NCBI GenBank assembly: GCA_001799615.1
Contig: MGTU01000004.1
Span: forward strand, 124,001-188,000
Direction: 5' to 3'
DNA: 64,000 bases
Origin: Elusimicrobia bacterium GWA2_61_42
GTDB taxonomy: Bacteria; Elusimicrobiota; Elusimicrobia; Elusimicrobiales; UBA9959
The position numbers were made by a program, and so were the translations under genes. How positions within the stretch are numbered: the stretch's first letter is position 1; every line of letters begins with the position of its first letter. The notes under the pieces are model-generated. The model was not told the DNA's origin and made no database searches. It worked only from the letters and a program-made list of their open reading frames with translations. Shown in pieces: positions 4,978-40,477 of this stretch.

Positions 4978-4982
4978 AGGTG

Positions 4983-6140: not shown

Positions 6141-6341
6141 TAAAATCCTCTTAAAAAGCCGGTCCGGTACGCGGCCCTCGCGGGGCGGCGGGCTTTGAAG
6201 AATTATAATATAATTTGTAGTATAATTCTCGTCATCAAGTCTAGCCTGTGGCGGCGCCGTAGCCGCGGGAAATTCCCGCAAGACGGCCCGGTCTTAAAGA
6301 ACGGTTTTTGCCTTCTAAAGCGGTTTTCAAGAGGTGCCGAA
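6141..6341. promoter_or_regulatory. divergent promoter region between sucCD and korAB
   Basis: This spacer separates two divergent operons of one pathway. Its centre (about 6201-6226) is strikingly AT-rich against GC-rich surroundings and holds three TATAAT hexamers (6204-6209, 6209-6214, 6221-6226) readable as -10 elements. On the minus strand a TTGATG lies about 17-18 bases from AT-rich -10 candidates. Exact start sites cannot be assigned. Confidence 0.5.
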
Positions 6342-8198: not shown

Positions 8199-8199
8199 C

Positions 8200-19107: not shown

Positions 19108-21546
19108 ATGCAGAACAGAAAAGGCGTGACTCTGATAGAGCTGATGGTGGCCACGGTAGTTATTTCCGTGGGCGTCCTCGGCATGGTCGGGTCGTTTAAT
19201 TATATAAACCGCGCCATCCAGGGACCTAAAGGCAAATCCCTGGCTAATAACCTGGCCCAGGAAAAGATAGAGGTCCTGAAGAATAAATCCTATTTCCGGG
19301 TGCTGGTCAGCACGGGCATAGCCGAAGACGAGAACTTCACCCCCAAGTACGAGTACGACACCTGGCCGAACGGCTCGGAGACGCTCAACGTCGGCGGCAT
19401 CAATTTCACGCGCCGGGTCATGATCCAGAAGGTCAGCGAGGACAGCGCCGGCAAGCTGAAATATTTCAACTGGAACACCCCCGACACGGGTCTTAAAGAG
19501 ATCGCGGTGTTCGTGACCTGGCAGGAAGGCAGTTCCTGGCGGAAAGTGGAGCTGCGCAACCTGGTGGGGAATCCGAACCGCACTAATCTCACCGCCAGCT
19601 TCTACGGCACCGTGCTGGAGGCCGGCACCGGCACTCCCATAGAGGGCGCCATCATCCGGGCGCAGGAGAACCCCGCCAGGTACGATACCACCGACGCGGC
19701 CGGCAGCTACGATTTCGCCGCCGAGCCCGGGCAGTATACGCTGCAGGCGACCAGGCCCGGGTATTTTCCCTCCGTTTCCCAGCTCTACACCCTGGTGACC
19801 ACGCAGGAGCATGATTTTACGCTGACCAGGATGTCCAGCGGCACCGTGAACGGCAGCGCCTGGGTGCGCGACCACCTGGTAATAAGCCGCATCGTGGGAA
19901 GTTCGGTCAACGATTCCGGGTATTACCAGGAATACGTGGAACTCTACAATCCCACCACCTGGACCTGGACGGTCAACGGGGATATCGGCTTGAAGTTCCA
20001 GAAAGCCGGGGGGAGCAAGGCCGCTATCGGCGTAGATCTTTACGTGCGCGACGCTATTCCCAGCCAGGGCTATTACCTCTTTGCCAATACCGGTACCGTG
20101 CGCGCGGTGGGAGCGAACGTGGACGCGGACGCGACCTGGGACGAAGACGTTATACTCGTCGTAGAGGACGGGGGCGGGGAAGGGGCCGGCGCCCTGGAGC
20201 TTTACCGCATCTCCGACGGGCGCATCCTGGACCAGGTAGGCTGGGACAGGAATAATGAAGGAAAAACGGCCCCTTTCTACGAGACGAACGGCTACGACCA
20301 GGATATAGGCCTTCAGCTGGGTGAAACTTATCTCCGGCATCCCAGCGCGCTCGGGGCCAACTCCGCCTATGGCCCCGCCTATGACACCAATAACAACAAC
20401 ACGGATATAGAAGGCGTTACTTCGGCCGGCATCTGGAATCCCCCGCACAATTCCCTTTCTGCCGCCAAGCCCGTGCTCACCGGCACGCCGGCGGCAGGGG
20501 CCGTGGTCTTCGCCAATGACAGTCTTTCCGCTTCCACGCGCGCCGCGGCTTCCGGGAGTTTCTCTCTGCCGGGCGTCGCTACGGGGTACTGGTCCCTTTA
20601 CGTCTCAAGCGGCATCTCTTTAAGCACCGGCGGGTTTTACGGCGGCGGCGCCGCAGGCTTTTCCGCCTCCGCCGGGGATATCACCCTGAGCAGTGCCAAC
20701 GTCTTCGGCTATATCTCCGGCGTGGTCACCGGCGTGGACGGCGCCGGCCTGCCCAGCATAAAAGTGGCGGCGGGCGGCCGCCAGACCGCCACCCTGGCCA
20801 GCGGGGCTTACTTGCTGCCGGCGGACCCGGGCGAACAGACCGTCATGGCCAACTATCAGAACGACGATTCCAACTATATAGAAACTTCCTCCAACGGGGT
20901 TAACGCCGTTATCGGCGACATTACGCCCGGGGTGGACTTCGTGCTGCTCGCCGGCGGCAAGCTCCGCGGCTGGGTAACTACCAACGGCACCGACCCGCTG
21001 CCCAATATCCCGGTCTCGGCGTTCAGGAGCGGCATCGAGCAGGGCAACGGGATCAGCGGCAGCGACGGACGTTTCCTTATCTGGGGAGCGGGTATCTCCG
21101 TCGGTAATTACGAGGTGGTGCCCCAGCTCGAATCGGGGGAAAACTCCTCTCCTTCCACCCACACCGTTACGCTGGCCGCGGGCGGGGATATGTTCGTAGG
21201 GACCTTTACCATCGTAGGCGCCATGGGCAGCATTACCGGCGCCGTCACCGCGGGCACCGCCGGCATTACCACCGGGGTGCTGGTCTACGCCAGCACGGGC
21301 ACCTTGTCGGGTTCCCCGCTGCTGCCGCCCGTCATGAATTCCGTCACCAGGGCTTCCAGCGTGATCTACTACGCCGTTTCCAGCAACGCGCAGGGGCGTT
21401 ACGAACTGCCCGTGCGGGGCGGCTACACCTACAACGTTTATTCCTGGTATACCGTCTGGAACGACGGGACGCCTGTCACCACGTCGAGACAAACGACCGC
21501 GGCCGTGACCGCGGGCGAATCGGTCACGAGGGACTTCTCATGGTAG
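19108..21546 (+). CDS. oversized PilV-like prepilin with carboxypeptidase-regulatory and lamin-tail domains
   Basis: 812 residues. The N-terminus MQNRKGVTLIELMVATVVIS is a class III/type IV prepilin signal: cleavage after Gly, Glu at +5 and a hydrophobic helix. After a pilin-like region (to about 165) comes a beta-sandwich of the carboxypeptidase-regulatory type (GTVLEAGTGTPIEGAIIRAQ), then an LTD-like segment (about 249-430; LVISRIVGSS, QEYVELYNPT, ILDQVGWDRN) and further regulatory-like sandwiches. Ordinary PilV proteins are about 150-200 residues, so this is unusually large. It overlaps the next gene by seven bases. Probably a surface-exposed pilus-tip or adhesin-like minor pilin. Confidence 0.8.
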   Translation: MQNRKGVTLIELMVATVVISVGVLGMVGSFNYINRAIQGPKGKSLANNLAQEKIEVLKNKSYFRVLVSTGIAEDENFTPKYEYDTWPNGSETLNVGGINFTRRVMIQKVSEDSAGKLKYFNWNTPDTGLKEIAVFVTWQEGSSWRKVELRNLVGNPNRTNLTASFYGTVLEAGTGTPIEGAIIRAQENPARYDTTDAAGSYDFAAEPGQYTLQATRPGYFPSVSQLYTLVTTQEHDFTLTRMSSGTVNGSAWVRDHLVISRIVGSSVNDSGYYQEYVELYNPTTWTWTVNGDIGLKFQKAGGSKAAIGVDLYVRDAIPSQGYYLFANTGTVRAVGANVDADATWDEDVILVVEDGGGEGAGALELYRISDGRILDQVGWDRNNEGKTAPFYETNGYDQDIGLQLGETYLRHPSALGANSAYGPAYDTNNNNTDIEGVTSAGIWNPPHNSLSAAKPVLTGTPAAGAVVFANDSLSASTRAAASGSFSLPGVATGYWSLYVSSGISLSTGGFYGGGAAGFSASAGDITLSSANVFGYISGVVTGVDGAGLPSIKVAAGGRQTATLASGAYLLPADPGEQTVMANYQNDDSNYIETSSNGVNAVIGDITPGVDFVLLAGGKLRGWVTTNGTDPLPNIPVSAFRSGIEQGNGISGSDGRFLIWGAGISVGNYEVVPQLESGENSSPSTHTVTLAAGGDMFVGTFTIVGAMGSITGAVTAGTAGITTGVLVYASTGTLSGSPLLPPVMNSVTRASSVIYYAVSSNAQGRYELPVRGGYTYNVYSWYTVWNDGTPVTTSRQTTAAVTAGESVTRDFSW

Positions 21547-22052
21547 CCGCGCGCCGCAAACTGGGTTATACCCTGGTAGAACTTATGATCGTGGTGGCCA
21601 TCCTGGGCATCATCGTCACCGCCGCCCCGCGCCTGCTCAACGGCATCTACCGTTTTACCCGCATGGCCACCGCCAGGCTGGAGATACAGAAGAACGCCAG
21701 GGCGGCCCTGTCCAATATAAACAGGGGCCTGCGGCAGGCCCAGGCTTCCACGGTGGTCATCGACCAGCTGAGCGGCATGCCGCCGCATTCGCGCATCACT
21801 TACGACCGCTATACGCCCGACGGTACCATAGACAGGATCTCCTACTACCAGTCCGGCAAAGCGCTGTACCTGTCCGCGGACGGCGCCCCGGGCAAGAAAA
21901 TAGCCGACGACCTGCGCTATATAGCTTTTACCTATCCGCAGAGCGACAACAGCTATATTCTTTCTATTTCCATAACGTTCGAAAGGGCCACCTATGAAGG
22001 CGGCGCCAAGGCCCTGCAGATGGCCGTGGAAAAAGTCAGGATAATGAACTGA
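21540..22052 (+). CDS. PilW-like minor prepilin
   Basis: 170 residues starting MVAARRKLGYTLVELMIVVA: a prepilin cleavage site (KLG/YTLVE) with Glu at +5, then a long hydrophobic helix. The remainder is short and beta-rich (ISYYQSGKALYLSADG, SYILSISITFERAT), consistent with a PilW/GspJ-type pseudopilin. ATG 21540 lies inside the last codons of the upstream prepilin gene, so translation is coupled. Processing needs a PilD-type peptidase, which is not encoded in this window. Confidence 0.85.
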   Translation: MVAARRKLGYTLVELMIVVAILGIIVTAAPRLLNGIYRFTRMATARLEIQKNARAALSNINRGLRQAQASTVVIDQLSGMPPHSRITYDRYTPDGTIDRISYYQSGKALYLSADGAPGKKIADDLRYIAFTYPQSDNSYILSISITFERATYEGGAKALQMAVEKVRIMN

Positions 22053-22079
22053 GCGGCAGAGGCTTTTAAGGTCAAGCAT

Positions 22080-23573
22080 ATGAAAACGATACGGGCTCAC
22101 GGCGGCAAAACAGCGTTCTTCCCCCGCGCTGCCGGCTGCCCCGCTTTCTTTGGCCGCGCCCGCCGCGGCCAGATGGCCATCACCATGGTCATAGCCACGC
22201 TGCTGCTGCTCATGATCATTATTCCCATGCTGGACCATTACGTGAAGAACGAGGCCAAGTGGTCGGTGAAAGAAAGAAAGAGCACCCTGGCTTTCCACCT
22301 GGCCGAGGCCGGCCTGGACAGGGCCTACTGGAAGCTTAAGGAAAATTCCACCAACTGGACCACCATAGCGACCGGGGGCGTGGTGGACGGCTACCACGAC
22401 GACGTGGTCTACTCCGATATCGAAGGCGGCAGCTATAAGGTCAAGATGGAGCAGGGAGATACCGGGCTGGAAATAAAGATAACGGCCACGGGCAAGGACT
22501 TCAGCAACAACGAGTACCGGGCTATAAAGGCGGTCTATACCAAGGAAGGCGTGACGGCCGCCCTGCAGGCCGGTTCGGTGGGAGCCGGCGGCAACGCCAA
22601 CGTGCATTGGGGTCCCATGATGTCCGTAAGCTCCATGGAACTTAAAGGCGGCTCCAACGAGCTTTATCCCAGGAAATACGCGCGGGGCTCCATAATCAAG
22701 GGCGGTGGCGGCGGCGCCGGGAATTACGGCACCAGGGACAACGACCCCAACCAGCCAAACAAGGGGCCGCATACTTCCGGCGACCATATAGAGTGGTGGA
22801 GCTATAACGAGCCTCCCGGCGTGCCGGACGTGCTCACCCCGGACACTTCCTACTATATGGAACTGGCCAAAGCGCAGACTTGCACCCCCGCCGGGACCAT
22901 AGGCTGTTATTACGAGGGCAACCGCACCGGCGGCGCGGCCATCGGAGGGCTGGTCGACACCACCTGCACCGTGGGCGCGGACCCCAAGGTCAGGTTTTTT
23001 ACCAATAACGCGGAGTTCGGCAGCACTAAATATTTCTGCGGCGTGCTTATAGTACTGGGCAACCTTACTTTTAAAGCCGGCGGCAAATCCCCCGAGGGCG
23101 ACCTTACCGTAGATCCTCCGGCCACGGCCTGGAAGGAATACCAGTGCAATGTGCCCACCCATAACGGGGATACCGACGCCGGGGATATGACGACCTGGAC
23201 CTATACTCCCGACGGTACGCATCCCGGTACCTGCGACGGCCCCCACGGGGACACCGCCGAGCCTGATGAATATCCGGGCGACGCCGGCTACCGTATCGTG
23301 AGCCCGTACAATTTCAAGACCGGCCGGGTAGCTACAGGCGAACTGGGCTACGGCGGCACAGGTAAAGAGCTCAGCTATAAAGGTTATATCTACACCGGCG
23401 GCACTTTCGACAACGCGGGCGGCGGCCGCATCTTCGGTTCCGTGCAGGTGGCCGGGGCCGGCGGCATGAGCGGCGGCGGCGATATTTTCTACGACAGCGG
23501 CCTGAACATCCGTTTCCTTAACAACAACATCACGCGCTCGTCCTGGCACGAGGTGGCGGCCGTCCCGTTCTGA
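22080..23573 (+). CDS. PilX-like secreted protein with N-terminal membrane helix
   Basis: 497 residues. A basic N-terminus and RRGQMAITMVIATLLLLMII form a membrane helix, followed by HYVKNEAKWSVKERKSTLAFHLAEAGLDRAYW split across a conserved PilX-like region: the AEAGLDRA motif is typical of PilX/GspK-like minor pilins. The Glu-5 prepilin site is not clear. The long C-terminal domain is Gly/Asn/Thr-rich with paired cysteines and DGYHDD-type acidic loops, suggesting an extracellular, possibly metal-stabilised beta structure. Third gene of the prepilin run; the kinase gene of the peptide locus begins two bases after its stop. Confidence 0.7.
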   Translation: MKTIRAHGGKTAFFPRAAGCPAFFGRARRGQMAITMVIATLLLLMIIIPMLDHYVKNEAKWSVKERKSTLAFHLAEAGLDRAYWKLKENSTNWTTIATGGVVDGYHDDVVYSDIEGGSYKVKMEQGDTGLEIKITATGKDFSNNEYRAIKAVYTKEGVTAALQAGSVGAGGNANVHWGPMMSVSSMELKGGSNELYPRKYARGSIIKGGGGGAGNYGTRDNDPNQPNKGPHTSGDHIEWWSYNEPPGVPDVLTPDTSYYMELAKAQTCTPAGTIGCYYEGNRTGGAAIGGLVDTTCTVGADPKVRFFTNNAEFGSTKYFCGVLIVLGNLTFKAGGKSPEGDLTVDPPATAWKEYQCNVPTHNGDTDAGDMTTWTYTPDGTHPGTCDGPHGDTAEPDEYPGDAGYRIVSPYNFKTGRVATGELGYGGTGKELSYKGYIYTGGTFDNAGGGRIFGSVQVAGAGGMSGGGDIFYDSGLNIRFLNNNITRSSWHEVAAVPF

Positions 23574-23575
23574 CC

Positions 23576-24412
23576 ATGAGCCTGGTAAAAGTAAAACCGG
23601 CAAAAAAAAATCCGGCCGCCGCTGCCAGCGGCTTTGGCCTGGAACTCGCCGGTTTCGGCCTGAATTTCAGCCCGGCCGCCGCCGGTTTCCTCCCGGTTTT
23701 AAAGCGCAGGTACGGCCGGTTTGCCGCAAAGCGGGCTGGCGGCCTGCGCCTCTCCGTCTCCGGCCTGGCCGGCAGCCAGAACCCCTTTAAACCCGCGGTT
23801 CTTCTCAGCGGTTCCCGGCTGGAGATCAAAAGAGGGGATTTTAAGGCGGCCATGGACCTGGCCTCGGGAAAAGGGACGCTGGCCGCCGCCTGCAGCGAGC
23901 AGTGCCTCGACGCTTTTTTGCGGGCTTTGCTCGGCGCTTTGCTGATCCGTTCGGGCGGGTTGATGCTGCACTCCGCCGGCCTGGTAAAGGGCGGCAAAGC
24001 GTATCTTTTTCTCGGCAAGTCCGGGGCCGGGAAGTCCACTCTGGCTAAACTTGTTGCCGCTTCGCGGCAGGCGGAGGTCATCAGCGACGAGATAAACCTG
24101 GTCCGGTTCGAGAAGGGCCGTTTTTGCGCCTACGGCTCGCCGTTCTGGGGCGAGATGCGCTCGGACGGGCGGCAGGGCTCCTGGCCGCTGGGCGGCCTGT
24201 TCCTGCTGAAAAAAGCGCGCGGGCACAAGATCTCCGCCTGCCCGAAGGCCGAAGCGTTCAAGGCGCTGCTGCGCTGCACGCTGAATTTTTCGCGCGAAGC
24301 CGGAACCGCCGCCGGGGTAATGCTTAACGCGGCCAGGCTGCTGGCTGCCGCCCCCGCCCGCCGGCTGGAGTTCTCAAAACTGGACGCGGAGTTCCTGGAA
24401 CTTATAAGGTAA
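23576..24412 (+). CDS. HprK-related P-loop kinase of a peptide-modification locus
   Basis: 278 residues. The C-terminal half is HPr-kinase-like: MLHSAGLVKGGKAYLFLGKS leads to the Walker A GKSGAGKST (147-155), then VISDEINLV and GSPFWGEMR. The N-terminal HprK domain is missing and the first 60 residues are Ala/Lys-rich. Such HprK-related proteins accompany PqqD-like and radical SAM proteins in RiPP-like loci, and one relative phosphorylates the C-terminal Ser of a lasso precursor. Here PqqD follows after four bases. Distinct from the true hprK at 49978. Substrate inferred, not shown. Confidence 0.8.
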   Translation: MSLVKVKPAKKNPAAAASGFGLELAGFGLNFSPAAAGFLPVLKRRYGRFAAKRAGGLRLSVSGLAGSQNPFKPAVLLSGSRLEIKRGDFKAAMDLASGKGTLAAACSEQCLDAFLRALLGALLIRSGGLMLHSAGLVKGGKAYLFLGKSGAGKSTLAKLVAASRQAEVISDEINLVRFEKGRFCAYGSPFWGEMRSDGRQGSWPLGGLFLLKKARGHKISACPKAEAFKALLRCTLNFSREAGTAAGVMLNAARLLAAAPARRLEFSKLDAEFLELIR

Positions 24413-24416
24413 AAAT

Positions 24417-24677
24417 ATGCCCGTGAAAATTAAAAAAGAGCTGGCCTTCAGGCGCGTGGGCGAAGAGTTGTTCGTGGTGGACGCGGCCAAAGCCCGCCTG
24501 CACGAGCTGAACGGCTCCGCCGCCCTGGTCTGGGACGGCCTGGCCGGGGGAAAAAGCGAAAGCGCCATCGCTGCCGCCCTCGCCGAAGAATTCGAAGTGG
24601 ACCGCCCGACCGCGCTGGCCGACGCGAAGGAATTTATCTCCGAACTGCGGGCCGCGGGTCTGGTGGAGGAAAAATGA
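24417..24677 (+). CDS. PqqD-like RiPP recognition protein
   Basis: 86 residues with the PqqD fold signature: N-terminal beta hairpin (FRRVGEELFVVDAAKARLHE), LNGSAALVWDGLAGGKS, and the helical end VDRPTALADAKEFISELRAAGLVEE. PqqD domains bind leader peptides and present them to radical SAM enzymes. It overlaps the small peptide gene by ATGA (start 24674, stop 24675-24677), which couples translation of chaperone and precursor. Family assignment is firm; partner identity is inferred from position. Confidence 0.9.
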   Translation: MPVKIKKELAFRRVGEELFVVDAAKARLHELNGSAALVWDGLAGGKSESAIAAALAEEFEVDRPTALADAKEFISELRAAGLVEEK

Positions 24678-24811
24678 AAAAGAAAAAAGTCTATGAAAAG
24701 CCGAAAATGAAGAGCGAAAAGGTCTTTGAGACGGCCGCGCTGGCCTGCGGCAAGTGCAATACCGGGCCGATCAGCCAGCTGGCCTGCAAAACGCTTAAAA
24801 AGGCCTCGTAA
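24674..24811 (+). CDS. candidate RiPP precursor peptide (45 residues)
   Basis: The ATG overlaps the PqqD stop. The peptide starts MKKKKVYEKPKMKSEKVFE, a Lys-rich, leader-like half, and continues TAALACGKCNTGPISQLACK and TLKKAS. Its features fit a precursor: small size, a charged N-terminus, a conserved-looking E-K-V-F-E-T-A-A-L-A segment suitable for PqqD docking, and a Cys-rich core (C25, C28, C38). It ends in Ser45, the residue type phosphorylated by a RiPP-associated HprK homologue. The core start is probably near residue 22-25. A peptidase starts four bases later and a radical SAM enzyme follows. The product structure is unknown. Confidence 0.75.
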   Translation: MKKKKVYEKPKMKSEKVFETAALACGKCNTGPISQLACKTLKKAS

Positions 24812-24815
24812 GAAC

Positions 24816-25136
24816 ATGGTTTCCGCTTTCCGCCTGGAGGGCTCGAGCATGCTGCCGGTCTTCAAGCCCGGAGAGATCGCTCTTGTATCCGGGGACGGGC
24901 TTAAAGCGGGGGACTGCGCCGTTTATTCCTACAAAGGCAGGGTTCTCCTCCACCGCGTTCTTAAAACGGCCCCGGCCGGAGCCTGGTTTTCGGACGACGC
25001 CGGCCGCCTTGAGCCGCATTTTGTTCCCTGGGGCGACATAAAAGGCCGCGCCCTGGGCCGTCACCCCCTGTCCGGCGGCTTCCTCGGTCTGGCCTATTCC
25101 AGGCTCCGCCGTGTTTGGAGGTTCAACCTCCGTTAA
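24816..25136 (+). CDS. S26/SipW-like serine peptidase domain protein
   Basis: 106 residues from ATG 24816; a longer frame upstream overlaps the precursor and is rejected. RLEGSSMLPVFKPGE carries the signal-peptidase-type Ser (S10 or S11 before Met), then GDCAVYSYKGRVLLHRVLK with H46 where SipW/eukaryotic-type signal peptidases have a catalytic His instead of Lys, and SDDAGR as in the last conserved box. There is no membrane anchor, so it is soluble or peripheral. Position between precursor and radical SAM genes suggests leader removal. An inactive or S24-like role is not excluded. Confidence 0.75.
   Translation: MVSAFRLEGSSMLPVFKPGEIALVSGDGLKAGDCAVYSYKGRVLLHRVLKTAPAGAWFSDDAGRLEPHFVPWGDIKGRALGRHPLSGGFLGLAYSRLRRVWRFNLR
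25117..25131 (+). promoter_or_regulatory. hairpin covering a GGAGG just before the radical SAM start
   Basis: GGAGG (25117-25121) can pair with CCTCC (25127-25131) over a TTCAA loop, five bases before ATG 25136. This could mask the only Shine-Dalgarno-like sequence until ribosomes finishing the peptidase gene open it. It lies within coding DNA, so the pairing may be chance. Confidence 0.4.
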
Positions 25137-26167
25137 TGTCTTTATCCTCTCCTTCCGCCAGGCTCAATACCCTTACGCTTGAGCGCAATATCCCGGTTTC
25201 CGTCACTATCGAACTGACCCGCCGCTGCCCGCTTGGCTGCCTGCATTGCTACCTGCCCGAAACGCGGGGACGCGCGCCGGCCGGCCGCGAACTGACTACC
25301 GCCCAATGGAAGAATATCCTCGCCCAAATGGCCGAAGCGGGGGCGCTTTACCTTGTTTTCACCGGGGGAGAGCCGCTGCTGCGTCCCGACCTGCCCGAAC
25401 TCTGCGCCCGGGCCAAAGAATTGAATTTCGACGTGCGGGTATTTTCTACCGGGCTGGGTTTGGACAGGGCGCTGGCGCTTGAACTGAAAAAGGCCGGGGT
25501 TTCGGGGTTCGAGCTCAGCTTTTACGGGCGCCCGGCAACGCACGACGCCGTTACCGGGGTTAACGGTTCTTTCAAAGGCAGCCTTGAGGCCGCCCGCCTG
25601 CTGAAAAAAACGGGCATAAAAGTAAAGATGAAAACCCCGCTGATGAAAAAAAACCTGGCCCAGGCCGGCTGGCTTAAGGCTTTGGCCGCGCGGGAAGGCT
25701 TTGGCCTCTCCTTCGACCCGGTGCTGACTGCAGCTAACGACGGAGAGACCGCGGCGCTGGCCCTGCGCCTTTCCGGCCGGCAGTTGGCTGAAGCCGTAAA
25801 ACTTTACGGCGCGGCGCGGTCTGCTTCGTCCCCCGCTGTTCCCTCCCAGCTTGATTTCCTGTGCGGCGCGGGCCGCAATGTCTGCGCCGTGGGGCCGGAC
25901 GGGGAACTTTATCCCTGCCTGCAGCTGCCGGTAAAACTGGGGAACCTGGCCACGCGCCAGTTCGCCGCCGTGTGGAAAAACTCTGCCTGGCTTAAAAACT
26001 GGCGCAAGACAGGTATGGATGACCTGAAAGCCTGCGTCTCTTGTTCCGATGCGGATTTTTGCAGCCGCTGTCCCGGGGTCAGTCTTGTGGAGGAGGGTAG
26101 TCCGCTGGCTCCCAATAAAACGGCCTGCGCCATAGCCAAAGCAATGCACCGGCTTGCTGTATCTTAA
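25136..26167 (+). CDS. radical SAM/SPASM peptide-modifying enzyme
   Basis: 343 residues from ATG 25136, whose A is the last base of the upstream stop (TAATG). The radical SAM core has C31, C35 and C38 (RRCPLGCLHC), then VFTGGEPLLRPD (GGEP SAM-binding motif). The C-terminal SPASM domain supplies C243, C250, C261, C300, C303, C309, C312 and C331, enough for two auxiliary 4Fe-4S clusters. Such enzymes make thioether or C-C crosslinks in peptides. The obvious substrate is the 45-residue Cys peptide encoded 325 bases upstream. Last gene of the locus. Confidence 0.92.
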   Translation: MSLSSPSARLNTLTLERNIPVSVTIELTRRCPLGCLHCYLPETRGRAPAGRELTTAQWKNILAQMAEAGALYLVFTGGEPLLRPDLPELCARAKELNFDVRVFSTGLGLDRALALELKKAGVSGFELSFYGRPATHDAVTGVNGSFKGSLEAARLLKKTGIKVKMKTPLMKKNLAQAGWLKALAAREGFGLSFDPVLTAANDGETAALALRLSGRQLAEAVKLYGAARSASSPAVPSQLDFLCGAGRNVCAVGPDGELYPCLQLPVKLGNLATRQFAAVWKNSAWLKNWRKTGMDDLKACVSCSDADFCSRCPGVSLVEEGSPLAPNKTACAIAKAMHRLAVS

Positions 26168-26334: not shown

Positions 26335-26781
26335 ATGAAAATGAACCGCACCTTAGCTTACGGCCTGGCCTGCCTGCATTATTTGGGGCAGAATAACGGC
26401 GGCAGCTGGAACCAGGTGGCCGATATTTCCCGCTTCCAGGGTCTGCCCGCTCCTTACTGCAACAAGGTGCTGCAGGCGCTGGTGCACGCCGGTTTCGTGG
26501 AATCGCAGAAGGGCAAAGGCTACCGTCTCAGCAAGGAGCTGGATGATATTAGCGTCTGGGCCCTGATGGAGGCCTTCACTTTCAACGGCGCGCCGGAGGC
26601 CGAACGGGAAGAGATCCCCGGCAAGCTCTACAAAAGGCTGCGGGAAGAAGTGAACCACTGGCTGGTGGGCCTGACCGTGCAGGATATCGTGGAGATGATG
26701 AAGGAAGAGGAGCGCTACAAGGACGAGAAGGCGCGCGGCGGCGCGAAGGCGCAAAGCGAAGGCGGCGCGGCCGAAGAATAA
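26335..26781 (+). CDS. Rrf2-family transcriptional regulator
   Basis: 148 residues from ATG 26335; upstream in-frame codons run through the leader hairpins and are rejected. The N-terminal winged helix MKMNRTLAYGLACLHYLGQ, then RFQGLPAPYCNKVLQALVHA and GFVESQKGKGYRLS, matches Rrf2 layout including the glycine-rich wing. The three clustered linker cysteines of Fe-S Rrf2 proteins (IscR, NsrR) are absent, so iron-sulfur sensing is unlikely. The C-terminal tail is charged helix plus an Ala/Gly-rich end. Its stop is three bases before the giant surface-protein gene, implying co-transcription and perhaps autoregulation. Confidence 0.85.
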   Translation: MKMNRTLAYGLACLHYLGQNNGGSWNQVADISRFQGLPAPYCNKVLQALVHAGFVESQKGKGYRLSKELDDISVWALMEAFTFNGAPEAEREEIPGKLYKRLREEVNHWLVGLTVQDIVEMMKEEERYKDEKARGGAKAQSEGGAAEE

Positions 26782-26784
26782 GTT

Positions 26785-29700
26785 ATGAAATTAAAGGCGC
26801 GGAAAAACAAAGAGTCTGGCGGCTTTAGGCCGCTGGTCCTCCTTTTTGCCGCCCTGCTGCTGCAGGCGGCGCCCGCTGTTTTCGCGGCTACTACGGTTTA
26901 TCTGGGCGACACGACTTCTTCCATCAATCCCGGTGACGAAGACGAACGCCGGCTGAACAGGGTACGCGGAACCGCCGCGGTAAGTTACCTGAAGAGCACC
27001 ATGGCCGGCCCCGTGACTCCGCCTGTTACCGCCACTCAGTTCACTCGCGCCGCGGGCGGCACAGTAATGATCTGGTATTCCGACCCGCTCGACGCGGTCA
27101 CCATCAGCGGCAATGTCAGTTTTAATATCTGGGCCATGGAGAGCGCCAACCAGGCCAACACCGGCCTTACCGGCGAGCTGCTGCGCGCCAGCGCTTCCGG
27201 GGCCATCCTGTCCGTTATCGCCGCCGTTCACGTGCCCACGGCCGAGCTGGGCACTTCCCTGGCCGCCCGCACCTGGACAAAAACGCCCACCCCTACCGCC
27301 CTCTCGAACGGAGACCGCCTGGCCCTGAGGCTTCACATCGACGATTTCGGCACTATGGGCACCGGCAGGACCATTACCATGACCATAGACGGCCCTACTA
27401 CCGGCGCCAGCGGCGACAGCCGGTTCAGCACGGTAGAGAACCTCGCCCCGGCCCGACCGGGCATAGGTTCTATCACCGGCCTGACGCAGACGGAGTTCTC
27501 CGGTTCCTGGACGCTGGTGGAAGGAGCCACCGGCTATACCCTGGCGTCTTCGGTGAACTCCGGCGCCGCCCCGACCCCTATTTACTCCTCGGTGAATACT
27601 TCGGAAAATTTCGCCACGCTTAACAGCCCGGCCCTTGCCTCCAACACCACCTACTACCCTTTCGTGCGCACCAACGGGCCCGGGGCTTCCAGTTCCTGGG
27701 CGGCCTTCCCCGTGCAGGTGACGCCGGCCTATGCCCCGTCTTTCTCCAATTTCACCAATATCTCCTCCTACACGGCCCTGTTTAACTGGGCGGCTAACGG
27801 CAATCACGCGGCCACGCTCTACCACGTGGTCATGTCCACCGCGGCGGACCCGCTGTCGCCTTTCGGCGCGCCGGTAACTTCCTCTTTTACCTATAACAAC
27901 TACCTCTCTTCCTCAGGACTGATGGCTAATACGCCATACAGTTTTCGCGTGGCTGCCATAAATCACGCCGGGCTTTACACGTCTTATACTCCGGTGGTTT
28001 CCACGTATACTCTGGCGGCGCTGCCTGTGTCCGGCCTTTTCACGGATGTTTCCGAGTCCGGCATAACCGCCTCCTGGACCGGCGGCGGCAACCCGTCCGG
28101 CACGCTGTACCGGCTGCTGGTCTCCACCGCGACGGACCCGGCGGCGCCCGTGGGGGCGGCGGTCAGTCAGCATGAGACCTATAATCTGTTTTTCAGCACC
28201 GCGGGGCTCTTGCCCGATACTACGTATTACTTTACGGCCGCCGGGATAAACGGCGACGGTGTGGCCGGCACTTACTTTAACGCCGTGGCCACGGCCACGC
28301 TGGCCGCCGAGCCGGTTTTCTCCGCTTTCAGCGAAGAGGCTTACGCCTCCCTGCGCTTCGCCTGGACCTCCGGCAACCCTGCCGGCACGCGCTACCGCGT
28401 CCTCTCCTCCACCGCCTCCGACCCGCTCGTTCCCGCAGGGGCAAGGGTAGCGTCTTCCGACACCTACAACCTTTCTCTTTCTTCGGCCGGCCTGGTGCCG
28501 GATACCCGCTATTATTTCCGCGCCGCGGCGGTTAACCGTAACGGCGTGGTCACCGCGTATTCGGCTCCGGAGAACCGCGCCACCCTGCTGCGCTATGAGC
28601 TTGCCTCGCCGGCCTTCACCGGAGTATCCGAGACCGGTATGACTTTGGGTTTTTCGGCCAACAGCAACGCCTATCCGGGCACGCTGTTCCGCGTGCAGGC
28701 TTCCACCGCGGCGACCCCGCTGACCCCCGGCGGGGCGGCCGTGGTTTCCTCGGATACCTATAACGCTTTCCTGGTCCTGGCGGATCTTTCGCCAAACACG
28801 ACCTATTATTTCCAGGCGGTCGGAGTGAACAAGGACGGGGCTTTGATGACCTATACCGCGGCCGTCGGCACCTCAACCCTGGCCAGCGTTCCCTCCGGGC
28901 TGCAGTTCACCGAGACCACCGACAGCAAGGTCCGCCTGGAATGGGCGGCCGTGAGCGGCCCCGGAACGCTGTACAGGGTGCTGGTCTCCACGGCGGTGAA
29001 CCCGCTGGTTCCGGTAGGGGCCGCGGTGACCAGTTCGGATACCTATAATCTTCACCTCTCCACCGAGGGCCTCACTTTCAGTAAAAAATATTATTTCCTG
29101 GCGCGCGCCGTGAACAATAACGGCAATGTTACGAACTGGAGCTCCTCGGTTTCCACTACCACGCTGGCCCCGGGCACGCTTGCCGCCCCGCTGGCCGGAA
29201 CCCTGTTGCCCCATGTGTCTTCCGCGACCGCCGCCTGGTCGCTGGTGGCTGGCGCCACGGGATACACCCTGGCCGCCTCGCTCTATGCCGACGATGCCCC
29301 GGTCAGCGTCTTCGCCTCCAGCACCACGCTGGGCGACCTGAGCGCCGCGGTGCCGGGGCTGGCCCCCGACACGGTCTATTACCTGTTCATCAGGGCCAAC
29401 GGGGCTGGCATAGTCAGCGCCTGGAATAAGTACTCTCCGGCGGCCACGCTGCTGCAGTACGCGCCGGTTTTCGGCTCCTTCGGCGCGCCCGCGGCTGACT
29501 CCGCTGTTCTGTCCTGGACCGGGGGGGGGAACCCGGGCGGGACCCTTTACCGCGTCCTCTCTTCTACCGCCGCCGACCCTTTGGCCGCCGCCGGCGCGAT
29601 CGTGGTCGCTTCGGACACTTATAATCTTTCACTGTCCTCTTCCGCCCTGGCGGCCAATACCGCGCATTATTTCAGGATAGCCGGTTTGAATAAGGACGGG

Positions 29701-32700
29701 GTGGCCACGGCTTACACCGCCCCCAGAGGCACCTCTACCCTGGCAAACCAGCCGGCGTTCTCGGGCTTCTCCGGCACCGGCACCTCCGCCATGACCTTTG
29801 CCTGGACCGCCGCCGGCAATCCGGCCGGCACGCTGTACCGGGTGCTGTCCTCTCCGGCGCCGGACCCTTTGAGCCCGAACGGTGCGCCGGTGGCGTCTTC
29901 CGATACCTATAATCTTTCGCTTTCCACTTCGGGCCTGACCCCGGATACTTCCTATTATTTCCGTGTGGCCGCCAGGAACAATGACGGCGTCATTACCGCC
30001 TATTCATCTCCGGAAGCCAACCCTACCCTGCCGGAGGCGCCCGCCTTTCCCGGCGTCGGCACCGTCACGGATTCTTCGGCCGATTTTATGTGGTCCGGAG
30101 GCAATAACCCCGCCGATACGTTGTACCGGGTGCTGGTTTCCCCCGCGCTCGACCCGCTGAATCCGGGCGCCGAGCTCGTTACCTCCTCGGACACCTATAA
30201 CCTCTACCTCAGTTCCTCCGGCCTGGCCGTGGACAAGGCTTACTATTTCGCGGTAACGGCGCTGGGCCACGACGGCCAGCCCACCGCTTATACCGCCCCG
30301 GAGCGGGCGCGCACCCTGGCGCGGCAGCCGGTGTTCTCTCACTTCGACGATGTGGGGGCGGCGTCCATTGACGCCAACTGGACCGCCAACAGCAACCCTC
30401 CCGGCACCCTTTACCGGGCGGCGGTATCGGCGGCGGCGGACCCGCTTAATCCCGGGGGCGTCGAGGCTACGCTGCTGGATTCCTACGGCCTTTTTGTCAG
30501 CAGCGCCGGCCTGGCCTCCGACACCACCTATTATGTCAGGGTGGCCGCCGTTAACGGCGACGGCGTGGCTACGGCCTATACAGACGCCCGCGGCACCGCC
30601 ACTCTCGCCGCTTACCCGCCGCTGTTCTCCGGCTTCAGCGACATCCAGACCGACGCCATCCGCGTGCTCTGGGCGCCCAACGGCAACGCCGACGGCACGC
30701 TGTACCGGGTGGCGGTCTCCTCCGTGGCGGACCCGCTGAACCCGGGCGGGGCGAAGGTCACTTACGAGGACACTTACGATCTTTCGCTGGCTTCATCGGG
30801 GCTGACCACCAACAAGCTTTATTATTTCCGTCTGGCCGCGGTGAACAAGAACGGGATCACCACCGCCTATACCGCGGCCCAGTCGGAGCGCACCCTGCAG
30901 GTGGTTACCAAACTCTACCTGCGCGACGACGTTTCCACCGCCGCCGCGCCCGACACCGGGGAGGAGCGCCGGCTTTCCCTGCTGCGCGGCGCCGCTTCAG
31001 TGAGCTATATTAAGAACACCGTGGCGGGCGCCGTGGCGCCGCCTTCCAGCGCTCTTCAGATCACTAAAGCCGCCGGCGGCGCGGTGCAGACCTGGTATAC
31101 CACGCCGCTGGACGCCTTTACCCTTATAAGCAGCGTTACTTTCAATATCCGGGCCCTGGAGAGCGCTACGGGCGCGAACGCCGCCGTGACGGCCGTGCTT
31201 TACCGTACGGACAGCGCAGGCGTCATCATTTCCACGGTAGCCGCCGCCCTGTCGGGCCGCGGAGAGCTGACCACGGCGGATTCGGCGCAGACCTGGTCCA
31301 TCCAACCCACGCCGACGGCTTTCAGCAACGGCGACAGGCTGGCCTTGCGGCTCTATATAGACGACTATAGTAACCTGGGGACGCTGACCTCGGGCCGGAC
31401 GGTAACCGTGACCGTGGGCGGCCCGACGGCCAACGCGGCCGGCGACAGCTGGCTGCAGGTGCTGGAGGAACTGCGCCCCGCCCGGCCGGCCTCTATTTCA
31501 GTTACAGGAGTGACCGCGGCGCAGCTCTCGGCCTCCTGGCCGCTGGTGAGCGAAACCACCAGCTACACGCTGGCCGCTTCCGTGAATCCCGGCGCCGAGC
31601 CGCAGCCGGTCTATTCTTCCAGCGATACCCTCGGCAATCTCTCGGCCACACTGGCCGTTCCGACCCTTTCCCCGAACACTACCTACTACCTGTTCGCCAA
31701 GAGCAATTTCGAAGGGGTTTCCAGCGGCTGGCAGATCCGCGCGGGCACGGCCACGCTGCTGGCCTTCGCTCCTGCTTCTTCCGGCTTCGGCGCGGTGGTT
31801 TCGGGTTCCATCCTGTTCGACTGGACGGCCAACGGCAACGCCGACCCGGGCACGCTGTACCGGGTGGTTTCCTCCACGGCGGTGAACCCGCTGAACCCGC
31901 TTGGGGCTGTGGCCGTAAGCTCGCTGACCTATAATACTTATCTCAGCACGGCCGGCCTTGTTGCCGATACTACCTACTACTTCAGCGTGGCGGGCCTGAA
32001 CCACAACGGCGTGGCCACCTTATACACCGCGGCCGTCGGCACGGCTACCCTGCTGGCTTTCCCTCCGGCCTCGCCGTCTTTCAGCGGCGTCGGCCAGACC
32101 GGCGTGCAGTTCAACTGGACGGCTAACGGCAACAGGGACCCGGGCACGCGGTACCGGGTGATCTCGTCCACGGCGGCGGACCCGCTTAGCCCGCAGGGAG
32201 CGTTGACGGTCTCTTCCGATACCTACAACCTGTACCTGGCTTCTGCCGGGCTTGCCGCCAATACCACTTATTACTTCAGCGTGGCGGGCGTGAACAAGAA
32301 CGGCGTGGAGACGGCTTATACTCTCGCGGCCGGTACGGCTACGCTGGCTTATGCCCCGGCTTTCGGCGCCTTCTCCGCGGTCTCGGCGGGGGAGATAGGC
32401 CTGAACTGGACCGACGGCGGCAATCCCGCGGGGACGCTGTACCGGGTGCTCTCCTCCACCGCCTCCGACATGGGCAGCCCCTCCGGCGCCGTCCTGGCTT
32501 CTTCGGAAACCTATAATCTGTCCCTGAGCTCCGCCGGCCTGGCCGCCGACACGACCTATTATTTCCGCGTGGCCGCGCTGAACCATAACCGCGCCGCCAC
32601 GGTTTATACCGCCTTGCGCGGTACGGCCACCCTGCTGGGCTTCGACCCTGTTTTTGCCGGCTTCCAGAACGTAGACGCGGGTTCGCTGCGCTTTAACTTC

Positions 32701-35700
32701 TCGGAGAACGGCAACGCGGCAGGCACCTTGTACCGCGTGGTCTCTTCTACCGCGCAGGATCCGCTGGCTCCGGCCGGGGCCGTGGCGGTGAGTTCCCTGA
32801 CCTATAACACTTTTCTCAGCACCTCCGGCCTGGCCGCGGATACCACCTATTATTTTTCCGTGGCGGGCGTGAACAAGAACTGGGTCTCCACCGCCTATTC
32901 CGCGCCCGCGGCTACGGCGACCCTGCTGGCCTTCCCGCCTGTTTTCACCAGCTTCACCGGCGTGGCGGAAGCCGCCCTGCAGTTCAATTTCTCGGCCAAT
33001 AACAACAGGTACCCCGGCACGCTGTACCGGGTGGCCGCCTCCACGGCGGCGGACCCGCTGGCTCCGGCCGGGGCGGCCGTGGTTTCTTCGGATACTTACA
33101 GCCTCGCGCTGGCCCTGGACGCACTGTCGGCCGACACCACTTACTATTTCACGGCCGCGGGCGTGAACAAGAACGGGGTGCTTACCAGCTGGAGCCCGGC
33201 GGCTTCCACCTCCACCCTGGCCAATGTTCCCGCCGGCTTCTTCGCCACCGGCGTGACCGAAGACTCCATGCTGCTTAACTGGGCAGCCAGCGGCAACCGC
33301 GACCCCGGCACGCGCTACCGGGTGCTGGCTTCCACCGCGGCGGACCCGGACGCGCCCTTAGGGGCCGCGGTCTCCTCTTCCGATACTTACAACCTCTATC
33401 TGAGCACCTTGCCCCTGAATCCCAGCACCGTCTACCGCTTCAGGGCTGCGGCCATCAACAATAACGGCGTGCGCACGGCCTGGAGCGACCCCGCTTTCAG
33501 CGCGCTCACGCTGTCCCCGGGGTCCATTGGCAGCCCCGCCGCCGGCGAGATCACCGGCGTGCACGTGAGTTCCCTGGCAGCGACCTGGGCCCTGGTGCCC
33601 GCCGCTACCGGGTACACTCTCGCCGCCTCGCTGTCCCCGGACAACCCGCCAACCGCCATCGTGGCGTCCAGCGATACCCTGACCGGAGATAACCAGGCCT
33701 ACGTCCCGGGCCTGGCTCCGGACACGGTCTATTACCTTTTCGCCAGGGCCAATAAGCAATGGGTTTCAGGTGACTGGTTCGCCTTCCCGGCCAGGGCCAC
33801 GCTGCTGCAATACCCGCCTGTCTTCACCTCGTTCTCCGGCGTGGCCGCAGATTCCATAGGTTTTAATTTCTCGGCCAACAACAATGTTTTTCCCGGTACC
33901 AGTTTCCGGGTGCTGGTTTCCACCGCGCCCGAACCGCTCGCCCCCGGCGCCGCGGCTTACAGTTCTTCCGACACCTATAATGTCGCGCTGACCACGGCCG
34001 GTCTGGCCGCCGATACTACTTACTATTTCCGCGCTGCGGGCGTTAACAAGGACAACGTGCTTACGGCCTATACGGCCGTGCAGGCCACCGCCACCGCCGC
34101 TAATATCCCGGTCTTTGCCGGCTTTGCCGGGGTAGGCGCCGGGGCTGTGACTTTTAACTGGAGCGGCAACGGCAACAGGGCCCCCGGCACCTTGTACCGC
34201 GTGCTGGTCTCCACCGCGGCGAACCCGGCCGCCCCCGGCGGGGCCCCGGTCACCAGTTCGGATACCTACAACCTCTACCTCAGCACCTCCGGCCTTGAGG
34301 CTGATACCACCTATTATTTCAGGGCCGCGGCCCTGGGCGCCGGCGGCACGGCCACCGCCTACAGCGCGCCGGTCGGTACGGCCACCCTCGTGGCCTACCC
34401 GCCTGTCTTCTCCGGATTCACCGGCGTGGGGACAGGGAGCGTACAATTCAACTGGTCGGCCAATAGCAACAGATATCCGGGCACGCGCTACCGCGTGCTC
34501 TCTTCCACCGCGCCCGACCCGCTTAATTCCGGCGGGGCCGTGGCGGTCTCCTCCGAGACTTATAACCTGCAGCTCAGCAGCGCCGGGCTGCCGGCCAATA
34601 CTACGCACTATCTCCTGGTCGCGGCCGTGAACCAGAACGGCGTGCTGACCGACTACACCGCCGTCGCCGGTACGGCCACTCTAGCCAATATCCCGGCGAC
34701 AGCCCTTTCCACTTTCAGCGCGGTCGCTTCGGGCGGCTTTACCGCCGCCTGGAACGCTAACGCCAACCCCGCCGGCACGCTGTACCAGGCGCAGGTCTCC
34801 ACGGCCCCGGACTTTAACTCCGGCGCGGCCGGGCAGATCGCTTCCACGGCGCCGGTCAGCGGCGAGGCCTACGCCTTTTTCGGCCTCCTGTCCAACAAGG
34901 ACTATCACTTCCGCGTCCGCGCCCAAAACCTCAACGGCGTTTATACCGGCTACGCCTCGCTCGGCTCCACGCGCACCCTGGGGCTGGCCGCGCCGGCCCC
35001 GCTGCCGGTGACGCAGGTTTCCACTTATTCCATCACGGCCTCCTGGTCCCTGGTGGCCGGCGCCACCGGCTACACGCTGGCGGCCTCGGTGAACTCCGGG
35101 GTTTCGCCTTCGCCCGTTTACGCTTCCAGCGTCACTGCCGGGACTTCGGCCGCTCTGTTAAATCCGGCCCTGGGGCTGAACACGACCTACTACCTTTTTG
35201 TAAAGGCCGGCGGGCCCGGCGACGAGAGCCCCTGGGCGGCTTACCCGGCCACCTCCACGCTGGTCAATATTCCCGTCGCCCCCGGCAGCCCGTTCAGCGC
35301 GGTCGGCGACAGCGGCTTTGTCCTGTCCTGGCTGGCCAACTCCAACCCGCTGGGCGTCACCCGGTATACCGTGCAGGCTTCCACCGCCCTGGATTTCAAC
35401 GCCGGCGTCACCAATAAAATCGCCCTTTCCACGGTCCCGGAAGCCGGGCCCGGCGTTACCTTCAGCGGCCTGAGCAGCGACACCTATTACTACGCCAGGG
35501 TGCGGGCGGAACATAATAACGGCAACTCCACCGACTGGGTAAGCCTGGGCGTGATCAAGACGCTGCTGCTGGCCCAGCTGCACGCCGCGGGCGACGGCGT
35601 GCTGATCTACGGGCAGTCGGGCAACAGCCTGCCGCAGTTCAGGGACTACGTGAGCGCCGCCAACTCTTTCAGCGCCGTGCGCAATACCGTCTCCGGCGCG

Positions 35701-38700
35701 GCCGGCATGCTCTTCACGGTGAAGACCAACCCCCTGACCACCAAGCAGGAAGCCGTCGCGGCTTACGTTAAGAGCGGCACGCTGCGCGTGCTCTGCACTG
35801 ACGGCGCCAACTGGTACGAGGAATGGACCCAGACGGTAGGCGGCGCGGACGCCACCCGCCGTTTCGACATAGCTTACGAGACGAACAGCGGCGATGTGAT
35901 GGTGCTCTATTCGCGCGGCGTAGCCGCGACCAATGAACTTGGCTACCGCACCAAACCCGGCTCCCTGGGCTGCGGCTCGGGCAACTGGTCGGGCGCCGCC
36001 ACGCTGGACCCGCTGCGGACTTCGGGCGCGGCGCACTGGGTAAAGATGGCGCCGGACCGCAGGGCTGATTACGACAATATCGCGGCGATCTGGGCCGACG
36101 CCAATTCCGACCTGTCGGCCATGGTCTGGAACGGCAGCGCCTGGGAGAACGAACCGGCCGCGGCCCTGGAGACCTCGCTGGAGATCGTGTCGGCCGCGCA
36201 GGACGTGGAGAGTTTCGCCGTGGAGACGGAATCCCTCACGGGCGACATCATGGTGCTCTGGGGGCACAGCGGCGGCGGCGACGGCGTCAACGGCGTGCGC
36301 TACGCCACGGCCACCTGGACCGGCCTCAGCCCGGAACACGCCTGGGGCGGGGTGGTTAACGCCCCCAACGCCTATGACGACGCCACCAACCTGGACCTGG
36401 CCGCCAACCCGGCCTCGGACGAAATGGTCTACGCTTCCATAGGCAACGCCGGCTCGGACCTCCAGGCCGGCTACTGGAACGGATCGATCTGGGCGAATTC
36501 CTCCAACCTCGATACCTCCGCGCAGACGCCGCTGGCCGGCACCAAGCTGGTGTCCGCCGCCTGGATAAGCTCCACCACGGCTACGCGCAGCATTGTAACC
36601 TACAACGACTCCGCAGTCACCAACCTGGGCTGGTACGTCGGCAACGGCTCCACTTTCACGGTCCAGACCGACTTCACGCCTTCCCCTGTTTTTGCCAACC
36701 CGCAGCGCTATCACGACCTGAAACAGGACCCCGTGAAGAGGAATACCCTGGTCCTCACGCTGGCGGATTCCAACGCCGACCTTTTCGCCAAGCGGCTGGT
36801 GATGACCTCCGCCGCCGCTTTCACCTGGACCAACGCCGAAGGCGGGGCGGCGCTGGAAGCCAACCTGGGCTCGGCCCTCTCCGGCGGCTACTCTTTCGTC
36901 TTCTGGCCCGCCCCTCCTACCACTACCTTCGAACAGAGCGCTTACCGCTTCTTCGCCAATACCGCCACCACCGACGTCGGTGCTCCGCTGGCGGCCCAGG
37001 ACGCCCTGGCTGTCCTGCCCGCAGCCGGAGACCCGTTCCGGCTCAGGACCCTGGTGAATATAGGCCAGGTGGACCTGCCGGTCTCCAGCCAGAGTTTTAA
37101 GCTGCAGTTCGCGGGCCAGGGCGACGGCACCTGCGAGGCGCTCTCCAACGGCGTCCCCGCCGACTGGACCGACGTGACAAGCCTCACGGCCGTGGCTTTC
37201 AATAACAACGCGCCGGCGGACCGCGCCGCGCTGACACCCAACGCCGAAGACCCGCAGCACGGCGTGCAGGCGAATATCAACCAGGTTTACGCCGAATCCG
37301 GCGGCTTCTCCAACTCGGCCGCCGGGATAGCCCGCAACCGCGACGGCCTGTGGGACCTGGCGCTGAAAGATAACGGCATGGCTCCCGGCGCGGTGTACTG
37401 CCTCAGGCTTGTCAGGGACAGCGGGGTGCCCCTGGAATTCTACGGCGCTTATCCGCGCGTGGTCTCCCCGGCCGTCCTGGCCCTTAACGAGGTCTACCCT
37501 TCCGCGGCCGCGGCCGCCGACGACTGGGTGGAGTTCTATAATAATTCCCAGAGCACGGTGCCGCTCACCGGCTGGCGGCTGGACTACGTGGAGAACACCA
37601 TCGACCTGGGCGGTTCGGCCAATACGGTCTGGACCGGGCAGACGGGGCAGTATGTGAACGCCATGTCCACCTTCCTCGTCACCGGGCTCTCCCTGGACCT
37701 GAACGGGGCCCAGAGCTATCACGTCAAACTGCTCGACGCCGCCGGCGGGCTGGTGAGCCAGGCGCAGTGGCCGGCCGGCCTGCAGCCCGGCCAGTCGTTC
37801 GCGCGCATCAGCGACGGGCACCCTGATTATTTCGAGATAGACCCTACGCCTACCAAAGGCTACGCCAATTACGTCTCTACCGACGCCCTGACCATAAACG
37901 AGGTCTCCTATGGGGCGCTCGAATCGGAGTTCATCGAACTCTACAGCTCCGACCCGGCTTCCACCCGCCCGCTCGCGGGCTACGCGCTGCGCAACGCGGC
38001 GGCCTCCGCCGCCGGGCAGGTTTTCAGGTTCACGCGCAAGATCTACCCGCTGGATTTCACGGCGCTGGACGGCTCTTCGGCCGACAATGGCGGCCGTTCT
38101 TACGCCTCCGTCTTCGGGGCGCAGGGCCTGTCGGCCGCCGGGGATTTCCTGGCCCTGGAAAATTCCAGCGGTTCCACCGTCAGCCACCTCACCTGGCAGT
38201 CCGGCGCCGGCTACACCAGGTATAATTACGCCGCGCAGCTGGTCTCTTACGTAAACCCGGCGCCGGCCCTGGCTGTCCATTCCATAACCCGCGGGCCCGC
38301 CGACGGCGCGCATACCGGGGTGGACTCCGCGGATTTCTCCGCCTCCACCGGCACCACGCTGGCCTCGCGCAATAACGGCGCCGCTACGGCCGCGGCCAAT
38401 ACGCTGCATTACCCGGACCCCGCTGCCGGCGCCAGGTACCTGTCGCGCAGGTTCCCGCTGCGCCTGACCCTCGGGGCCGACGTCTCCGCGGGGCGCGGCA
38501 ATAACATCGTGCTGACGCGGCGGTCCGGTGCGGCCGACCCGGCCTCCCCGCACGTCTACAGGCTGGAGAATATCGGCTTCGATCTTTCTTCGCTGGCGGA
38601 GCAGGCCACTGTCCAGTTCGGTCTGCAGTTCGGGGACCAGGACTCCGGGGTTCTCGTGAGCGGAACTCTTTACCGGCTTATCCTTAACTCCGGTACCGGC

Positions 38701-40452: not shown

Positions 40453-40477
40453 GCGCCGAGTGGCCGGAGATGATCTT

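Follow-up and report, generated by a model that had tools for sequence, protein, structure and literature searches.

The genome of Elusimicrobia bacterium GWA2_61_42 carries a set of five joined genes whose product is very probably a small, heavily modified peptide. The genes span positions 23576-26167 on the + strand of the window, by which we mean the whole stretch of 64,000 nucleotides that was analyzed (G000:C4:124001-188000, in a 2.95 Mb genome). They encode, in this order, an HprK-related P-loop kinase, a discrete PqqD-type RRE (a recognition element of ribosomally synthesized and post-translationally modified peptides, or RiPPs), a 45-residue precursor peptide, an S26-like peptidase, and a radical SAM/SPASM enzyme. 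We consider it likely that this cassette makes a RiPP along the pathway proposed below, and that the product serves the cell envelope or surface. What places the system among the RiPPs is that a conserved leader/core precursor shares one locus with leader-binding and modifying enzymes. The genes and their motifs, their conservation and synteny, and a fusion of the S26 domain to a giant protein can be read directly in the DNA.

The kinase gene and the PqqD gene are separated by 4 bases, the PqqD gene overlaps the peptide gene by ATGA, another 4 bases separate the peptide gene from the S26 gene, and the S26 and radical SAM genes overlap by TAATG. The initial annotation of this DNA had placed all five genes and their joins exactly.

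The precursor peptide is conserved in the phylum

The precursor gene (24674..24811, 45 aa) is identified by its conservation in the phylum and by synonymous differences far in excess of non-synonymous ones. Searches against known families gave nothing usable for the window peptide, and no NCBIfam match. A search of 199 genomes gave matches to the peptide in 46 at E ≤ 0.1: strong ones in 38 (E ≤ 4.4e-8, the window's own genome among them) and weak ones in 8 (E 0.02-0.08). The weak matches are probably due to chance; none of the 8 genomes is recovered by a peptide profile search at 1e-3, and of two weak-match loci fetched, one (L076) has no match to the cassette and the other (L077) has only a weak peptide-like match. 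Both are left out of all counts. A 15-member profile of the peptide finds matches in 54 of the 340 genomes of the phylum, and in 25 of 100 genera. We looked for the absence of such a peptide from related genomes, which would have told against the initial annotation, and found it conserved there. Plasmid records give no match to the peptide, and viral contigs give 66 pattern matches, none of which was confirmed.

The resulting precursor set has 55 sequences from 54 genomes: 37 loci of the window family, the loci L074 and L075, and 16 loci from deep lineages (deep loci). Some counts below refer to a first set of 39 sequences. The leader motif YxxP (Y-E-K-P in the window, 24692..24703), the predicted RRE-binding site, has its Tyr exactly 14 residues ahead of the predicted cut in all 55 precursors, and both Y and P are present in 39/39 of the first set. 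The predicted leader cleavage site is F-E-T (24725..24733), with the cut after T20. The residues just before the cut are FET in 41 of the 55 precursors, IET in 4, FEQ in 4, FEK in 2, and IEQ, LEK, IES and LET in one each, so that Glu is found in 55/55 and xET in 46/55.

The predicted core of 25 residues, AALACGKCNTGPISQLACKTLKKAS (24734..24808), has three cysteines, arranged as a CxxC pair and a third Cys. All three are present in 39/39 of the first set; in the full set of 55, a single precursor has a fourth Cys and the other 54 have just the three. Core position 3 is Leu in 39/39 of the first set. The final residue, S45 (codon at 24806..24808), is Ser in 55/55 precursors although the preceding three residues vary. 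This Ser, the predicted phosphorylation site, is the sole hydroxyl residue at a fixed place in every core. No aromatic or acidic residue is common to every core of the 55.

Conservation is higher for the peptide than for the enzymes. All five genes are present in 32 of the 39 first-set loci; among these, pairwise identity averages 0.74 for the peptide and 0.45-0.51 for the enzymes, and in 489 of 496 locus pairs the peptide ranks first among the five proteins. These counts are not independent observations because the loci share descent. Leader and core have similar mean identity (0.738 and 0.744). In 11 hand-picked comparisons with the window gene, 49-77% of the synonymous sites differ and 6-10% of the non-synonymous ones; per site, synonymous differences are about 5- to 12-fold above non-synonymous. 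Judging from these alignments, the peptide is real and under strong purifying selection, and its pattern of conservation appears unlike that expected of a diversifying bacteriocin.

The cassette enzymes

The radical SAM/SPASM maturase (25136..26167, 343 aa) has clear Pfam matches to Radical_SAM (2.9e-23) and SPASM (2.7e-8), as does the PqqD-type protein (24417..24677, 86 aa) to PF05402 (1.5e-17), in agreement with the identities first proposed for both. The PqqD-type protein, the predicted leader-binding adaptor, also matches lasso_PqqD_Strm at 1.5e-12, below cut-off. In the first set, the three Cys of the radical SAM motif CxxxCxxC are present in 35/35 or 36/36 sequences, and of the seven SPASM Cys, six are present in 36/36 and one in 35/36. 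The nearest solved relatives are SkfB (6efn, 3.9e-35) and PqqE (4e-35), followed by 5wgg and 5v1q, which we take to be CteB and SuiB, respectively. Plasmid records include 354 with a match to this enzyme, all below 60% identity, and among the matches listed 7 of 10 are annotated as PqqE or MftC. A contig search of genome collections with the radical SAM enzyme as the sole query reports 7 loci, five titled Elusimicrobia bacterium and two titled only 'bacterium'.

The core has three conserved Cys and no conserved aromatic residue, and for this reason a thioether is the likeliest chemistry for the radical SAM enzyme to perform on it. The crosslinking that the initial annotation had proposed continues to be a prediction, drawn from those cysteines, from the lack of a universal core aromatic, and from the kinship of the enzyme to SkfB and PqqE.

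That kinship also raises the question of a bacteriocin or a signalling peptide of the sactipeptide/ranthipeptide sort, in which the kinase would be decorative. The nearest solved radical SAM enzyme is the SkfB maturase, and the core has three Cys and a weak resemblance to SCIFF peptides. But leader and core are alike under strong purifying selection, and none of the five cassette genes encodes an immunity protein or an exporter. We consider such a peptide unlikely.

The kinase (23576..24412, 278 aa) has weak family matches, below cut-off, to TIGR04249 (1.3e-8) and TIGR04352 (2.9e-7). Its assignment as HprK-related is borne out by an AlphaFold model (17 sequences; predicted local distance difference test, pLDDT, 90.6), which has the PEPCK/HprK fold: it has 66 PDB matches at E ≤ 0.001, with PEPCK at the top and the L. 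casei HprK (1kkl) at 3.2e-5. The catalytic residues are conserved, with H132, the Walker A (P-loop) residues, D171 and E172 kept in 34/34 sequences of the first set.

The predicted leader peptidase (24816..25136, 106 aa) has weak family matches, also below cut-off, to the archaeal signal peptidase TIGR02228 (2.6e-5) and to Peptidase_S24 (0.0065). A profile of the S26-like proteins matches SEC11A at 2.2e-7, that is, the endoplasmic reticulum (ER)/archaeal type of signal peptidase. The triad residues in the first set are S11 in 37/38, H46 in 39/39 and D61 in 37/39. In the full set, the nucleophile is Ser in 46 of the 55 loci and Cys (GGCMRP) in the other 9, which are L074 and eight of the 16 deep loci (L110, L112, L113, L115, L116, L118, L123 and L124). 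This replacement suggests a cysteine variant and not a dead enzyme.

Gene order and co-occurrence

In the window family, the order is HprK-PqqD-peptide-S26-rSAM (rSAM, the radical SAM gene) wherever the genes are matched; in L074, L075 and the deep lineages, it is HprK-PqqD-rSAM-peptide-S26. The 16 deep loci have matches to HprK in 14, to PqqD in 15, to rSAM in 15, and to S26 in 15; the S26 protein of L120 was not picked up in the search of the deep loci but is recognized by Pfam. Contig ends truncate four loci (L057, L062, L063 and L073). Same-genus genomes that do not have the peptide do not have the radical SAM enzyme either, at E ≤ 1e-60, in 11/11 cases, and the enzyme is present in both positive controls.

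Just downstream of S26, AAA ATPase genes are found in L113 (5574-6908, by Pfam), L116 (7858-8694, by eye) and L118 (by eye), and L113 has there a DUF2204 nucleotidyltransferase-like gene (PF09970) as well. Possible nucleotidyltransferases are found near L113, L124 (by eye) and L125 (by eye) only. The last of these, L125 (G000:C28:87500-97500, ~3247-8985), holds a second PqqD of the window's own genome, flanked by the nucleotidyltransferase-like gene and by an open reading frame (ORF) with an N-terminus that looks S26-like (GRSM...HRV...KGDGN) fused to a long repeat region.

A giant secreted-type protein next to the cassette

Newly described here are a giant ORF downstream of the cassette, and the fusion of the S26 domain to the giant in four deep lineages. 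In the window, the giant (26785..40452, 4555 aa) is a secreted-type protein with FN3, lamin-tail and PQQ-type propeller domains (PQQ, pyrroloquinoline quinone). We counted + strand ORFs of at least 900 aa starting at most 5 kb downstream of the peptide, for loci with enough sequence only, and used as a control the 5-kb stretch ending 2.5 kb upstream. A giant ORF is present downstream in 32 of 41 loci versus 1 of 27 upstream; the 900-aa threshold, which was chosen after viewing the loci, narrowly excludes the pilin-type ORF upstream in the window (812 aa). The giants fall in one homology cluster in 31 of the 32 cases, a clustering that FN3/Ig repeats can inflate, and the giant ORF of L058 may be a shadow frame. 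At the start of most of them there is a segment that resembles a signal peptide (by eye), and in many the sequence RIKTVEWNFGG or TTVYLGDT comes next. In L109, L111, L119 and L122, which represent four deep lineages, the S26 domain and a secreted-type region are joined in a single ORF through a hydrophobic segment (by eye).

Other neighbors are more restricted. Three pilin-type genes lie directly upstream of the cassette (19108..23573), two of them with the N-methylation motif and a third that looks PilX-like by eye and matches nothing in Pfam; the PilX-like ORF (22080-23573) ends 2 bases before the start of the kinase gene. Pilin homologs are found in 22-25 of the 37 window-family loci and in 0/18 of the other loci. 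An HD-domain protein (PF13487 in L110) has homologs in 14/16 deep loci and in L074 and L075, and in 0/37 window-family loci. A regulator of the Rrf2 family (26335..26781; Pfam Rrf2, 8.8e-18) adjoins the cassette in the window, with homologs in 26/37 window-family loci and in L074 and L075, and in 0/16 deep loci. The giant is thus a more widespread companion of the cassette than the upstream partners, whether pilin-type or HD-domain.

A functional link to the pilins, which we considered, is weakened by their homologs occurring in the window family only and by pilW/pilX-type genes occurring without the cassette in five same-genus genomes. In those five genomes the window giant has no match in the 12 kb fetched (4.2 kb for L131); one of the five stretches, L127, carries another ORF that is 1900 aa or longer.

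Following the giant, the window encodes a 1063-aa protein (40460-43651) with a PQQ-type propeller, FN3, and a Por_Secre_tail (secretion system C-terminal sorting) domain. On the minus strand, at 45219-46717, there is an ABC-2 type transporter permease with an ATPase. No other pair among the ten flanking proteins that were scanned looks like an exporter, and there is no evidence connecting this one with the peptide.

The neighbors also bear on whether the peptide could serve as a scaffold on which a small redox or metal cofactor is made, as for PQQ and mycofactocin, being processed by the radical SAM enzyme and then mostly discarded. This would fit with a peptide more conserved than its enzymes, a radical SAM enzyme near PqqE by sequence, and a discrete PqqD. 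However, the cores have no aromatic or acidic residue in common, the recurrent neighbors are giant secreted-type, pilin-type or HD-domain proteins and not dehydrogenases, and the kinase would be left unexplained, all of which makes a cofactor very unlikely. Finally, it is highly improbable that the radical SAM enzyme leaves the peptide unmodified and that the cysteines bind a metal or cluster, with the cassette and the adjacent Rrf2 acting as a redox-sensing regulator: an Rrf2 homolog in 28/55 loci, the CxxC...C pattern and marginal Mss4 matches of the peptide (5/15 members, best E 0.013) would suit this, but peptide and enzymes persist in the deep loci, where Rrf2 is absent, and radical SAM enzyme and peptide are jointly absent from the 11 same-genus genomes.

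Comparison with known systems

The linear polyphosphorylated peptides (LPP) of Bacillota are a similar system, which the initial annotation overlooked; it also missed that the C-terminal Ser is invariant and that the cassette is linked to giant surface-type proteins. According to the available text of Popov et al. 2026 (PMC13381572), in LPP a discrete RRE binds a YxxP leader, the HprK-like LppK phosphorylates core Ser3, and the SipW-like signal peptidase LppS (S29, H68, D93), helped by the RRE LppB, cuts after F-3 E-2 T-1. The same text reports that LPP clusters carry a nucleoside triphosphate (NTP) transferase and an MsbA-like exporter, that the cores are variable, and that the spread is patchy, which the authors credit to horizontal transfer. 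Our cassette shares with LPP the HprK-like kinase, the discrete RRE, an archaeal-type signal peptidase with a Ser/His/Asp triad, the YxxP, and the F-E-T leader end. On the other hand, the leader Tyr is at -16 in LPP and at -14 here, and the LPP leader YxxPxVLxHQxIxFETxxS has no match here: YxxP and FET are kept, with two residues fewer between them and a different middle part. The core Ser3 phosphorylated in LPP corresponds to Leu here, and the cores, variable in LPP, are conserved here, with three Cys and a terminal Ser. The term 'radical SAM' does not occur in the main text of the LPP paper (PMC13381572), whereas a radical SAM/SPASM enzyme is present here.

As for paeninodin-type lasso peptides, their kinases modify a C-terminal Ser that the available text of PMC9266682 calls extremely conserved in kinase-bearing clusters, and their leader has a Y/WxxP motif, according to the part of PMC13381572 available to us. 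The resemblance to our cassette is in the HprK-like kinase with a conserved C-terminal Ser, the discrete RRE, and the Y/WxxP leader; the differences are the S26-like peptidase and the radical SAM enzyme found here. A lasso peptide proper was rejected: the lasso peptidase B2 domain PF13471 is not found in the window's own genome at E ≤ 0.01 (genome 95% complete), and there is no macrolactam cyclase (protein C) among the cassette genes, for which no genome-wide search was made. Since defining features of both fail, though the workings are alike, we assign the cassette to neither the LPP nor the paeninodin type.

The SynChlorMet cassette (TIGR04249-04251) holds PqqD and radical SAM/SPASM genes, and its HprK-like ScmC is the best NCBIfam match of the kinase. 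The scores are far below cut-off (ScmC 34.6 of 125 bits; ScmE 84.3 and ScmF 53.6 of 400), and there is one radical SAM enzyme here versus two. SkfB/CteB-type systems, which make sactipeptides and ranthipeptides, similarly combine a SPASM radical SAM enzyme with a Cys-containing core (solved relatives 6efn and 5wgg). They differ from our cassette, which has a shorter radical SAM enzyme (343 aa), a discrete PqqD, a predicted phosphorylation, and an S26-like peptidase.

In the literature searched, as far as its available text goes, neither LPP nor paeninodin-type systems were found reported with a radical SAM/SPASM enzyme. No description of this five-gene set was found among the papers listed, at the level of titles and opening parts of abstracts, in a literature to which subscription papers mostly did not belong.

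A proposed pathway and how it stands

We propose that the PqqD-type RRE binds the YxxP leader and presents the precursor, as the conserved motif and the protein family suggest. The radical SAM/SPASM enzyme would then modify the Cys-rich core, most likely with Cys thioether crosslinks. The HprK-like kinase would phosphorylate the C-terminal Ser45, a role suggested by the invariance of that residue and by the kinase fold. The S26-like peptidase, with its Ser (or Cys)/His/Asp residues, would cut after F-E-T (residue 20) and free a core of ~25 residues, a prediction based on the LPP site and the S26 triad. The order of these chemical steps is a suggestion as well. The synteny and the fusion suggest a role of the product in the cell envelope or at the surface. 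Given the conservation of the peptide and its link to giant secreted-type proteins, such a role is the most likely one, as opposed to inter-bacterial killing; that is, the product most likely resembles a part of the cell's own surface more than an antibiotic. As to the initial annotation, its RiPP, the leader removal by the S26-like peptidase, and the phosphorylation by the kinase are now backed by conserved residues and by the analogy with LPP, to the extent described in the available text of PMC13381572.

Several observations weigh against this pathway. The cassette is known from its genes, without a known product. At the predicted cut site, the Thr at P-1 is swapped for Q, K or S in 9/55 precursors, and the model of the S26-like peptidase (pLDDT 91.0) matches LexA and signal peptidases only weakly, with a best E of 3e-3. 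In the fused ORFs that were scanned (L109, L111 and L122), Peptidase_S24 is found at the N-terminus but below the Pfam cut-off. The likeness of the core to SCIFF is marginal (2/15 members, best E 0.004-0.007). Unlike LPP, the cassette has no exporter or NTP-transferase among the five window proteins. The giant ORF is absent in 9 of 41 loci. The gene set is also not always complete: L064 and L067 have no radical SAM match near the peptide, L054 and L112 have no HprK match, and L123 holds only the peptide, S26 and the giant. Genome G026 has the kinase and PqqD without the peptide; in its locus L132 (G026:C4:1-4500, reverse strand), the HprK-like and PqqD genes follow pilin-type genes at 1837-2927 from its start, and after them there is no peptide, S26 or radical SAM match in the stretch fetched.

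A more specific possibility, which we hold as tentative and rather doubtful, is a structural or assembly RiPP. In it, the crosslinked, C-terminally phosphorylated peptide would be attached to the giant surface protein, or needed to build it, and the S26 domain, fused to that protein by way of a hydrophobic segment, would hand the peptide over.

The cassette unites a predicted C-terminal Ser phosphorylation, a predicted RRE-guided leader cleavage by a signal peptidase, and a predicted SPASM radical SAM chemistry, which were not found reported together in the available text of the literature searched. It also takes the LPP-like type of leader peptidase to another phylum, beyond the family of its 2026 description, which the accessible part of that report restricts to Bacillota. 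The highly conserved precursor, the Ser-to-Cys swaps in the peptidase, and the S26-giant fusion offer clear ways to test what a conserved RiPP does for the cell that makes it. If the structural or assembly role is true, many lineages of the phylum would have retained this RiPP as a part of the cell surface, and not as a released metabolite.

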